A DNA stretch of 41,467 nt from Candidatus Hydrothermarchaeota archaeon (lineage in GTDB: Archaea > Hydrothermarchaeota > Hydrothermarchaeia > Hydrothermarchaeales > BMS3B). Positions 9,651 to 13,970 of this stretch are shown piece after piece. The translations under genes and the position numbers were made by a program. How positions within the stretch are numbered: position 1 is the stretch's first letter; each line of letters opens with the position of its first letter. The stretch covers positions 1 through 41,467 of the forward strand of contig WANX01000131.1 in assembly GCA_015521565.1 (NCBI GenBank). The letters run 5' to 3'. The notes beneath the pieces are model-generated. The model had not been told where the DNA came from. It saw only the letters and a program-made list of their open reading frames with translations, and searched no databases.

Positions 9651-11276
9651 ATGCGCAAACTGCTGCCTGCCCTTGCACTGCTTCTCCTCCTGATGGCACA
9701 GGACTATGAAAAGCCACAGCCAGCGCTCTGGGTGGAGGTGCACGACCTCTCACCTGGCTACAACACAGAAGAGGTGGAAAGACTGCTGCAACTTCTGGAG
9801 GGCAGAGCAGAAAGGGTGGTTCTCTTCGTAATACCGGACCGTGACGGCACAGAGCCCATATCCAGATACGCCGGCTTCCTGTCCTTTCTGAAAGAAGCTG
9901 CAGCAGGAGGGGCTGAAATAGGCGCCCACGGCTATACCCACAGAGGATTTGAGTTCCTCACCTCCGGCGAGAGGGCAGAAGCGCTGGTCTCAGAGATCAG
10001 GAGGGAATTCAGGGCCGCGGGCTTTGAGCCCCGGATATTCTCCCCGCCCAGATACCTGCTCACCCCCTCAGCGCTTCAGGTGCTGAGCAGGGAGTTTCAG
10101 GAGGTCTTTTTAATTGGCCGGATTGTCACACACGGGGGCTCCCTCCCCTATCCCTCCAGGGAGTTCACACCGGGCAGGATGCAGAAGCTGTTCATGCCCC
10201 TGGCAAAGCTCTCCCTGCTCACAACCGGCGGGGAGGTCTATCGTCTCAGCGTCCACATGGCCTACCTCAACAACGAGTCGCTGCGGTTTCTGGAGGACTT
10301 CATCTCCTGGGCAGGATTTGAGGCAGGAAAAAGCTGCACCGTGGGCCAGGAGCTTCTTCAAGAAGCCCGCAGAATGGAGCCCCCCGGTGATGTGCGTGGC
10401 GTAAAGCGCAATGCATATGCGCTGCTCTACGCCGCCAACATGTACACGGCCACCCGTGAGGACAGATACCTCGCCATGGCCCACACCCACGCCAGTTACC
10501 TGCTGGAAAGGCAGCTTGCGGAGGGTGGATGGCGTGAGGTTGAAGGAGAAACCACGTCCAGCTACTCCCTGCTGGAAACCGCCGTTGCAACCTGGGCTCT
10601 CTCTCAGGCGTACACCGCCGGAGCCATATCCGGTATGGACGTGGAGAGGAGCATCCTGCGGGCAGGAGATGCACTGTTGCGCAGGACAGAGCTGCTCACT
10701 TCCTTCGGCTACAGCTTTGGCCTGAAGCCCAACGCCATAGGCTTTGCAGCCCTTGCTCTGGAAAGGGTTTCCAGGGCTGCACAGGAGATGGGCGACGCCA
10801 GGAGAGCTGAGCGCTACCGCAGGAAGGCTGTGGAGATAGGTGATGGTCTGGTGAGGATGCAGCTTGAGAACGGTGCCTGGTACGACGGCCCCTACCGTCT
10901 GCCCGGTCATCGCTGGCGAAGCATAAGCTCCTGGTACCAGGGGATGGCGCTCAGCGGCGTGGTCGCAGCGTATGCGGCCTCGGAACCAGGAGAGAGGCTG
11001 AAATTTCTGGAGAGTGCCCGGAAGGGCATAGCTTTTATCAGAACAATGCGGCATGACGGAGGCTACTGGGGTGTGCTGCATCCGAACCGCACCCGCTCCG
11101 GAGACGGCAGTGTAATGGTGCTCCAGGCACTCGCTATAGCAAACTCCTTCGGAGTGCGCGCCGGCTGCGACGGGCTCAAATCCACCGCCTCGAGGGTCGG
11201 GAACTGGGATGCCAACTACGCCTTTGCCGTGAGCCAGCTGCTCGCCACTCAGAAAGGTGCCGGGAAGCGCTACTGA
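9651..11276 (+). CDS. Secreted DUF2334/polysaccharide-deacetylase-like domain fused to an alpha/alpha-toroid (six-hairpin glycosidase-like) domain
   Basis: Signal peptide MRKLLPALALLLLLMAQ; ALWVEVHDLSPGYNTEEVERLLQLLEG, GAEIGAHGYTHRGFEF, FSPPRYLLTPSAL; C-terminal helical repeats (GGWREVEGETTSSYSLLETAVATWALSQAY; RMQLENGAWYDGPY; SSWYQGMALSGVVAAY). Confidence 0.7.
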   Translation: MRKLLPALALLLLLMAQDYEKPQPALWVEVHDLSPGYNTEEVERLLQLLEGRAERVVLFVIPDRDGTEPISRYAGFLSFLKEAAAGGAEIGAHGYTHRGFEFLTSGERAEALVSEIRREFRAAGFEPRIFSPPRYLLTPSALQVLSREFQEVFLIGRIVTHGGSLPYPSREFTPGRMQKLFMPLAKLSLLTTGGEVYRLSVHMAYLNNESLRFLEDFISWAGFEAGKSCTVGQELLQEARRMEPPGDVRGVKRNAYALLYAANMYTATREDRYLAMAHTHASYLLERQLAEGGWREVEGETTSSYSLLETAVATWALSQAYTAGAISGMDVERSILRAGDALLRRTELLTSFGYSFGLKPNAIGFAALALERVSRAAQEMGDARRAERYRRKAVEIGDGLVRMQLENGAWYDGPYRLPGHRWRSISSWYQGMALSGVVAAYAASEPGERLKFLESARKGIAFIRTMRHDGGYWGVLHPNRTRSGDGSVMVLQALAIANSFGVRAGCDGLKSTASRVGNWDANYAFAVSQLLATQKGAGKRY

Positions 11277-11578
11277 TACTCCCTCCAGGTGTACCTGCAC
11301 CTGGTGCACCTGTAAAAACGCGTTTCCGCCTCATCCGCCTTGCGCGTCTGCAGAAGCCACCACTCCGCCTCCATGTTGCCGCACCTGGGACATTCGGCCC
11401 TCGTGGTGGGCAGCGTTCTTACTTCTTCGTCAACCACCACGACACCTTCCTTCCTCTCCCCCCTGCTCACTATCTTGTAGTCGTCCTCATTTTCTATGCC
11501 TGCCACCGCACCGCACCGCTGGCAGATTAGCCTCCTGTCCCTGGGCAGCATCAGCCCGCCGCACCTATCGCAGAACAT
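11270..11578 (-). CDS. tfs: Transcription factor S (TFIIS/RPB9-like)
   Basis: Two zinc ribbons: MFCDRCGGLMLPRDRRLICQRCG and AECPRCGNMEAEWWLLQTRKADEAETRFYRCTRCRYTWREY. Confidence 0.93.
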   Translation of the reverse strand: MFCDRCGGLMLPRDRRLICQRCGAVAGIENEDDYKIVSRGERKEGVVVVDEEVRTLPTTRAECPRCGNMEAEWWLLQTRKADEAETRFYRCTRCRYTWREYQ

Positions 11579-12020
11579 GCTTCCTCCTCAGGTAGTCTCT
11601 TATTATATCAGCATGGTCAAAGGCGAGGCTCTGCTTCAGGGCCTCCCGGGGGTCAAACAGCCTCGCCTCCGCAGCATCACTCCTGCCTTTTAACTTGCCC
11701 TCACCGCGGGCGATGAAGCAGATGCTCACCACATGTCCCCGGGGGTCGCGCTCTGGGTCTGAGTAAACGCCAAGCAGTTCCTTAACCTCAACATTCAAAT
11801 TTGTCTCCTCCTCAGCCTCCCGTTCCGCCGCTTCCTCCACACGCTCACCGCACTCCACGAAGCCCCCGGGCAGAGCCCAGCAGCCTGCGAAGGGCGGATT
11901 CGCTCTTTTTATGAGCACTATGCGTGAGCCCACCTCAATAACCACATCCACCGCCAGGGCGGGAGCCTCGCGTTCACCGCACACGCAGGGACAGCGCAAC
12001 TTTTCACCTCCTGTAGGCAT
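11565..12020 (-). CDS. NUDIX hydrolase
   Basis: Nudix box GGFVECGERVEEAAEREAEEETNL. Confidence 0.93.
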   Translation of the reverse strand: MPTGGEKLRCPCVCGEREAPALAVDVVIEVGSRIVLIKRANPPFAGCWALPGGFVECGERVEEAAEREAEEETNLNVEVKELLGVYSDPERDPRGHVVSICFIARGEGKLKGRSDAAEARLFDPREALKQSLAFDHADIIRDYLRRKHVLR

Positions 12021-12525
12021 GGAGCATTGCCGGAAGCATACCTATCACAGTGCAGGTCTCGAAAGGCACACGCCTGCCTGAAAGTTCCAGGTGATAGTCT
12101 GCGATGCTGAGCACATTCCGCGGCAGACCGCGCCTTCCCAGCCCAATAACCACGAGGAAGGAATTCCTTTCAGCGCGCTGCGCAAGCTCCCGGGGCGCAA
12201 GGAGTTTATCCTCTTCCGGCTCCGGTGTGGCCGCCACCACCTCGCCGAGCTGCGGTGGAAACCCCCGGCGCGGAAAGGGGAAGATTCCGAGCCTGCCCTC
12301 TCTGGCAAGGAGCCTGAGATAGTGTCCGCCCTCACCTATGGTGGTGCTCGCAAGCCGCTCAATTGCGCTGGAAAAGCCCTCCTCCAGCGGAAACCCAAAA
12401 AGCGCCAGGTTGGTCTCAAAGGCGTAGCACACCGGCGCTGCTCTCGCGACGCTCCTCCTGTGGATCTCGTGGAGCTTCGACGGGTCGTAGCTGTTGTACA
12501 GCCCCAGGGTTATCCTTCCTCCCAT
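12004..12525 (-). CDS. DUF531-like archaeal protein
   Basis: MGGRITLGLYNSYDPSKLHEIHRRSVARAAPVCYAFETNLALFGFP...VVIGLGRRGLPRNVLSIADYHLELSG. Confidence 0.7.
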   Translation of the reverse strand: MGGRITLGLYNSYDPSKLHEIHRRSVARAAPVCYAFETNLALFGFPLEEGFSSAIERLASTTIGEGGHYLRLLAREGRLGIFPFPRRGFPPQLGEVVAATPEPEEDKLLAPRELAQRAERNSFLVVIGLGRRGLPRNVLSIADYHLELSGRRVPFETCTVIGMLPAMLHAYRR

Positions 12526-12935
12526 GCAGCTTCACCCGCTCTCGACAGCAGAGCTGCAAACCCCCTGATGGAGGCCTCCTCCAGGTTTTCCGTCTCTGCC
12601 TGCAGCTCCTTCTCCAGCAGTGAAACACACTCCTCCAGGCTCAGGCTTCTCTGCAGAACCACATGAGCCAGCAGACTCTCGGCGAAATCGCCAAGCTCGT
12701 GCCTGCTGACCCGCCTCCCGGCCCGCTCGCGGAGCCCGGCTCTGACGAGGGCTTCTGCGAGAATCAAATTCGGGACTTTTTTTCCCACCACCCTGCCGAG
12801 AACTCTGGAAAGCGCCAGCGAATAAACCAGGTTGGCGATGCTGTCCCCCAGCGGGGATAGCTCTGCAAATCTCGCCTGGAAACCCAGGAGAGGATAATCC
12901 TCCTCAGTTCTCAAGCTTCTTCTGCAGCTCATCAA
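12510..12935 (-). CDS. Archaeal ribonuclease III-like family protein
   Basis: GDSIANLVYSLALSRVLGRVVGKKVPNLILAEALVRAGLRERAGRRVSRHELGDFAESLLAHVVL; embedded in an RNA-processing gene cluster. Confidence 0.5.
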   Translation of the reverse strand: MMSCRRSLRTEEDYPLLGFQARFAELSPLGDSIANLVYSLALSRVLGRVVGKKVPNLILAEALVRAGLRERAGRRVSRHELGDFAESLLAHVVLQRSLSLEECVSLLEKELQAETENLEEASIRGFAALLSRAGEAAWEEG

Positions 12936-13389
12936 ACTCCTTCACAACCTCTTTCAGCACCTGCTTCAGCACATGCCGTGGAGGTGACGGGATGCCGTAG
13001 TCCAGCTTCTTTGCCTCAGCGACGTAGCGCTCCAGTATGCTTCTGGCTATGCCGGTCTTTTCCGCCAGAACCTCAAGGTCTGCCCGAAGCAGGGCGTTCG
13101 CACTGGTTATACCCGCACCGGCGAGCTGCTCCTTGCGCTTTGGACCAATTCCCGGCACAGCTGTGAGCTCAACCTCCTTCTCCCCCTCACGGGGCACCTC
13201 TATTCCCGGCCTCACCCGCAGATAGACCACCGGCTGGGAGAGCAGGGGATGGGCGATGCGGTAGGAGGCAGCCTCCACCGCCTCGTGGCGTGCCAGCGCC
13301 TCCCTGAGCAGATTGCAGAAGGTATGGTCCTCGCCGCGAAGCTCAAATTCCAGCTCCACATCCGACTCCCTGATAAGCCTTATCTCCAC
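12904..13389 (-). CDS. rpoL: RNA polymerase subunit L (RpoL/Rpb11-like) with internal helix-hairpin-helix insertion
   Basis: N-terminus MEIRLIRESDVELEFELRGEDHTFCNLLREALARHEAVEAASYRIAHPLLSQPVVYLRV is typical RpoL; then ELTAVPGIGPKRKEQLAGAGITSANALLRADLEVLAEKTGI (HhH); then a terminal helix HVLKQVLKEVVKEFDELQKKLE. Confidence 0.85.
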   Translation of the reverse strand: MEIRLIRESDVELEFELRGEDHTFCNLLREALARHEAVEAASYRIAHPLLSQPVVYLRVRPGIEVPREGEKEVELTAVPGIGPKRKEQLAGAGITSANALLRADLEVLAEKTGIARSILERYVAEAKKLDYGIPSPPRHVLKQVLKEVVKEFDELQKKLEN

Positions 13390-13400
13390 CCTGCCACCCC

Positions 13401-13970
13401 CTATATCACTCCCTTACCGTACTCGGAGGAGTACTTGCGCGACTCGTACCTGCCGCAGTTCGGACACACAAGGCGCCTGCCCTGCAGCTTGAGCGCAATA
13501 TTGCAGGTGGTGCAGTACGCCTTTATCGCTCCCAGGTTCGTGGCCACTGTGCTCAGAGCGATTGGCACTCGCCGGGTGTTGGTAACCTTCGCCAGGACTA
13601 TGTCTCCCACTTTAATTTCGCGGTCTATGTCCTGCACATAGCTGGAGCGGAGCTGTGAGATGTGAATTGTGCCGTACACATTGCCCGGAAGCTCCCGTGA
13701 GCTGCGCAGCAGGCGGATAAGCCTCACCAGCGCAAACTGCTGCTTCACATCCACCACCCTGCATATTGCCACATCCCCCACTCTGGGCTCGGGTATGGTA
13801 TTCGTTTTTGGCTCAACCTCAATCCTGCGCTCCTTCATATCTATCTTCAGCACACCCGTCAGGGAGGCGAATATCCTGCCGTTCTCCTCGTAGGTCCCCC
13901 TGCCAGGGATGAACTCCTCGCTGAACCCCAGCTCTTCACCGGGTACAACAAACTCACCTGCCTCAACCAT
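13401..13970 (-). CDS. csl4: Exosome RNA-binding protein Csl4
   Basis: FVVPGEELGFSEEFIPGRGTYEENGRIFASLTGVL, S1-like VGDVAICRVVDVKQQFALVRLI, C-terminal zinc ribbon CTTCNIALKLQGRRLVCPNCG. Confidence 0.93.
   Translation of the reverse strand: MVEAGEFVVPGEELGFSEEFIPGRGTYEENGRIFASLTGVLKIDMKERRIEVEPKTNTIPEPRVGDVAICRVVDVKQQFALVRLIRLLRSSRELPGNVYGTIHISQLRSSYVQDIDREIKVGDIVLAKVTNTRRVPIALSTVATNLGAIKAYCTTCNIALKLQGRRLVCPNCGRYESRKYSSEYGKGVI

Follow-up and report, generated by a model that had tools for sequence, protein, structure and literature searches.

An internal helix-hairpin-helix domain in RNA polymerase subunit L fixed across Hydrothermarchaeota

Few RNA polymerase subunits are as small or as conserved as RpoL. 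Archaeal RpoL/Rpo11, of the Rpb11/AC19 family, habitually consists of one compact domain about 86-100 aa long, in which a core of beta-beta-alpha-beta-beta order carrying a GEDHTFCN motif is completed by a long terminal helix; this compactness is a habit of archaeal RpoL and no defining requirement of the family. In bacterial RNA polymerase, the alpha-family platform bears a tethered helical domain of the helix-hairpin-helix (HhH) fold class, the alpha-CTD, which follows the terminal helix on a long flexible linker, and to our knowledge archaeal and eukaryotic polymerases lack it. HhH domains of the HHH_5 type are also found at the N-terminus of the recombinase RadA/Rad51 and as a terminal extension of the haloarchaeal ribosomal protein eL32. 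The D-L platform already has a described extra domain on its D side, the cysteine-rich ferredoxin-like domain inserted in RpoD, which supports assembly in other archaea (PMC5300874; PMC13374769). In Hydrothermarchaeota, a phylum of uncultured archaea, a fold that usually grips DNA has been spliced into RpoL, a finding relevant to the question of whether the polymerases of archaea and eukaryotes can carry an alpha-CTD-like tethered domain on their alpha-like platform.

The window, that is, the whole stretch of 41,467 nucleotides analysed here, comes from an organism close to Ca. Pyrohabitans and encodes rpoL/rpo11 on the minus strand (12904..13389). The frame, read from 13389 to 12904, starts with GTG, runs without an internal stop and specifies 161 aa. 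Pfam assigned residues 12-60 to RNA_pol_L_2 (PF13656, the Rpb3/Rpb11 dimerisation domain; E 1.5e-17, over the curated cut-off), a core that includes the GEDHT motif, and residues 74-128 to HHH_5 (E 8.4e-10; 39.4 bits against a curated cut-off of 27). The NCBIfam match was to RpoL (best E 1.8e-17), its score falling under the full-length cut-off because the match ends where the insert begins. Together with the archaeal L chain 4qiw_L, which Foldseek placed at rank 1 for the predicted structure, these matches confirmed the preliminary description of the frame as RpoL. A search of the genome with RNA_pol_L_2 returned the insert-bearing RpoL as its sole match, which ruled out a second, canonical RpoL; as the only copy, this protein is therefore not a spare paralogue. 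Its partner RpoD is ordinary in the same genome, with 258 aa and, by sequence, the ferredoxin-like cysteine pattern.

The protein departs from canonical archaeal RpoLs in a block of about 65 extra residues that follows the last beta strand and precedes the terminal helix, close in size to the roughly 70 first estimated. Residues 1-60 (13210..13389, minus strand), comprising beta1, beta2, helix 1, beta3 and beta4 with the GEDHTFCN motif, and the terminal helix at residues 136-160 (12910..12984, minus strand) align with ordinary archaeal RpoLs, and the HHH_5 domain lies between them (residues 74-128; placed at 13006..13170, minus strand, by the genome search). An AlphaFold model built from 19 relatives (mean pLDDT 90.7, pTM 0.72) displayed core elements at E2-8, E12-18, H22-34, E38-44 and E54-59, followed by four insert helices at 83-91, 97-102, 105-112 and 116-126 and then the terminal helix, with block values of pLDDT of 92-95 from residue 71 onward. 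Foldseek superposed the core on the archaeal L chains 4qiw_L and 8cro_L at an rmsd of 1.1-1.3, and a gapped match to 8xmc_K extended over 160 columns (TMt 0.76), again recovering the terminal helix. Outside RNA polymerase, the best matches were to chains of RadA and extended over about 51-57 columns, in keeping with the RadA N-terminal HhH domain; a profile of the insert alone likewise ranked RadA first among solved structures. Unlike the RpoL insert, however, that domain sits on a recombinase, and a tree of the domains separates the RpoL inserts from RadA and Hel308 (support 89/97). The insert is thus an autonomous (HhH)2 domain that interrupts the Rpb11-type fold at the turn from beta4 to the terminal helix, and this structural reading is supported by Pfam, the alignment, the model and Foldseek, as the preliminary description of an internal HhH flanked by core and terminal helix had proposed. 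The same evidence bears on whether the domain could be an artefact of annotation or assembly, a terminal appendage of a mis-called frame or a fusion of two genes. We reject this explanation as scarcely credible: the model places the canonical terminal helix after the insert, the architecture occurs as a single open frame in 22 MAGs, some of them with long contigs (1.9 Mb in G012), and no evidence in its support was found.

As with ordinary archaeal RpoL, the neighbour immediately upstream is csl4, encoding an exosome subunit (13401..13970, minus strand; NCBIfam NF034126, E 2.4e-56). Downstream on the same strand lie genes for an RNase III-like protein (12510..12935; Pfam Ribonucleas_3_2, E 5.9e-23), a DUF531 protein (12004..12525; Pfam E 2.5e-60) and, beyond a NUDIX-like frame named by eye, the transcript-cleavage factor TFS (11270..11578; NCBIfam TIGR01384, E 1.9e-31), in agreement with the neighbours first noted, namely Csl4, RNase III-like and TFS. 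The RNase III-like frame as listed overlaps the 3' end of rpoL by 32 nt, so the true start of this gene may lie further down than listed. The order csl4, rpoL, RNase III-like, DUF531, NUDIX-like, TFS is largely kept in relatives, and the adjacency of csl4 and rpoL is retained. In the genus of the window, DUF531 is flanked by the RNase III-like gene and the NUDIX-like one, and in G021 it also follows the RNase III-like gene; it was not detected at this position in other families of the order.

The insert is present in all class genomes in which the locus is assembled (22/22), spanning nine families, and no secondary loss was found among them. A contig scan with a motif derived from an 11-row alignment recovered insert-bearing relatives in Ca. 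Pyrohabitans, Ca. Hydrothermarchaeum profundi and further Hydrothermarchaeota-type MAGs. The insert-bearing proteins measure about 145-163 aa, compared with 86-100 aa in the canonical archaeal comparators; Hadesarchaea, Thermoprotei, Bathyarchaeota, Woesearchaeota and others carry an RpoL of about 86-100 aa without the insert. The one class genome without the insert, G011, yielded neither an RNA_pol_L_2 nor a Csl4 match over the cut-offs, and because both are missing, this exception is most likely an assembly gap. Outside the class, the insert was not found among the matches listed when 394 archaeal genomes were surveyed and an 85,462-species genome collection was scanned once. Long RpoL frames elsewhere (G286, G058, G076, G067, G335 and G110) were rejected as candidates, their extra length being N-terminal read-through. 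We conclude that the insert is fixed across Hydrothermarchaeota, a new form, shared by the whole phylum, of a universal RNA polymerase subunit and a clean clade marker. The preliminary description had allowed that all relatives might carry the domain as a known feature. All relatives in the phylum do carry it; a published description was not found in the literature searched, which comprised few subscription journals. A 2026 study of archaeal RNA polymerase small subunits concerns Rpo8 and Rpo6 and not the RpoL insert, and the accessible text of a 2026 review of alpha-like subunits (PMC13374769) makes no mention of it.

Comparison of sequences within the family of the window indicated that the insert evolves under purifying selection, with a dN/dS about as low as that of the core. 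Pairs with the window gave 0.10-0.19 for the insert and 0.07-0.44 for the N-terminal core, values that are rough owing to high dS, and the mean majority-residue fraction was 0.67 in both. Recurrence of the architecture in 22 genomes and this selection place the insert far beyond chance. They also bear on the explanation that it is a neutral ornament, an insertion tolerated once fixed and retained, in the absence of a role of its own, only because its loss would disturb folding. According to the model, the turn evidently accepts a domain without disruption of the core fold, and decay of the hairpin in one lineage, described below, is compatible with relaxed constraint there; yet a dN/dS about as low as the core's and retention through 22 genomes of nine families without secondary loss argue against neutrality, which we consider unlikely.

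The first HhH motif of the window RpoL contains the canonical GxG hairpin (P79-G80-I81-G82; 13144..13155, minus strand), of which G80 and G82 are invariant in 19 relatives, whereas the second hairpin lacks GxG in its sequence. HHH_5 was matched by Pfam in 19/19 members of alignment A1, at E up to 1. In G020, G021 and G022, the three deepest-branching members, the GxG hairpin is gone from the first motif and the domain itself is retained; a model of the G022 RpoL displayed four helices in the insert (mean pLDDT 94). The insert of G022 is thus predicted to fold without the hairpin, so the domain can outlive the canonical nucleic-acid-binding motif, which weakens DNA binding as its sole role. The insert carries no net charge in the window RpoL, and among the members as a whole its net charge varies between -3 and +6. 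Given the inconsistent charge and the loss of the hairpin in one lineage, the nucleic-acid binding predicted from sequence is graded only as plausible. Nor need the insert bind nucleic acid, because a similar HhH domain is appended to an apparent glycan-processing enzyme in another archaeal family.

The reading that we favour, tentatively and at somewhat short of an even chance, is that Hydrothermarchaeota possess an RpoL with a selected (HhH)2 insert that keeps its pairing with D while the domain projects, that hairpin-bearing members contact nucleic acid and that one sub-lineage has repurposed the domain. Because the insertion begins and ends on opposite sides of a single turn, pairing of L with D, and with it the D-L platform, would be preserved, and the HhH domain would project from the enzyme on short tethers. 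In most members, we suggest with moderate confidence, the intact GIG hairpin may make sequence-independent contacts with nucleic acid beside the polymerase, the candidate targets being the duplex DNA that flanks it or the RNA that exits from it. Such contacts would raise the affinity or processivity of the polymerase, as the alpha-CTD does in bacteria, a role treated in PMC13374769. In the sub-lineage without the hairpin, the domain has presumably been kept for protein contacts or for stabilisation.

The main rival extends that last role to all members, the insert being a protein-protein or assembly module that stabilises the D-L platform at high temperature by docking on D, on A' or on a factor specific to the lineage. 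Retention of the fold in G020-G022 despite hairpin loss, the lack of conservation in the charge and the short linkers of several members are consistent with docking, and the RpoD ferredoxin-like domain is an earlier example of an added domain that serves assembly on this platform (PMC5300874; PMC13374769). However, invariance of G80 and G82 in 19 of the 22 members is not required by pure docking. The ferredoxin-like domain is an unrelated fold and sits in D rather than L; RpoD of this genome has its own, so the insert is no replacement for it. We regard docking or stabilisation as a sole function as a serious possibility, albeit a less probable one than the favoured reading with nucleic-acid contacts in hairpin-bearing members. 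Archaeal RNA polymerase can be reconstituted from recombinant subunits, so the role of the insert is testable without culturing the organism.

Related HhH modules were found on ribosomal proteins of the class. In six genomes (G000, G001, G003, G004, G012 and G015), eL13 ends in a C-terminal HHH_5 related to the RpoL insert, as at G000:C36:12791-13189 (L103:1753-2196, plus strand), and in G014 uL10 (Ribosomal_L10 with RL10P_insert; L108:481-1644, plus strand) does so as well; in eL13 of G006 and G008 no HhH was matched, the match covering the ribosomal part only. In the domain tree, the eL13 and uL10 copies are interspersed with the RpoL inserts and separated from RadA and Hel308; the tree rests on 61 alignment columns, too few to orient the copying between RpoL and the ribosomal proteins. 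These copies are terminal extensions, as in haloarchaeal eL32, whereas that of RpoL is an internal insertion in RNA polymerase. This grouping, and the co-purification of Rpo subunits with ribosomal proteins in Haloferax (PMC8576121), would fit a module that links the transcription and translation machines, its copies on RpoL, eL13 and uL10 binding one shared partner or nascent mRNA. We consider such a link improbable, given that the ribosomal copies are patchy, that the tree is short and that HHH_5 is promiscuous in archaea, the eL32 of haloarchaea being a case in point.

A bolder proposal joins this link to the bacterial parallel: the insert would be an archaeal counterpart of the alpha-CTD, gained independently on L and contacting promoter-region DNA or nascent RNA, with the copies on eL13 and uL10 giving RNA polymerase and the ribosome a partner in common. 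Both domains are tethered helical domains of HhH type on an alpha-family platform, but the RpoL domain is inserted in a turn instead of following the terminal helix, and we hold the proposal to be doubtful at best. Homology with the alpha-CTD was rejected, as hhalign against the E. coli domain gave a probability of 0.9% and no usable similarity; RNA_pol_A_CTD is absent among the Pfam matches listed for the RpoL members.

Beyond the class, the nearest HhH domains occur in other proteins, in frames of about 640-770 aa, mostly from the archaeal family f14, and in frames of about 320 aa, which would fit RadA. One protein from family f14 (L172:37-1401, in G215) ends in an HhH similar to the RpoL insert; by eye it reads like a GH57-type branching enzyme, a putative glycan-processing enzyme. 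In G167, an N-terminal HhH was observed on an open frame (L170:413-844, minus strand) whose end reads NIGLVGHVDHG, which we take to resemble the start of a translation-type GTPase.
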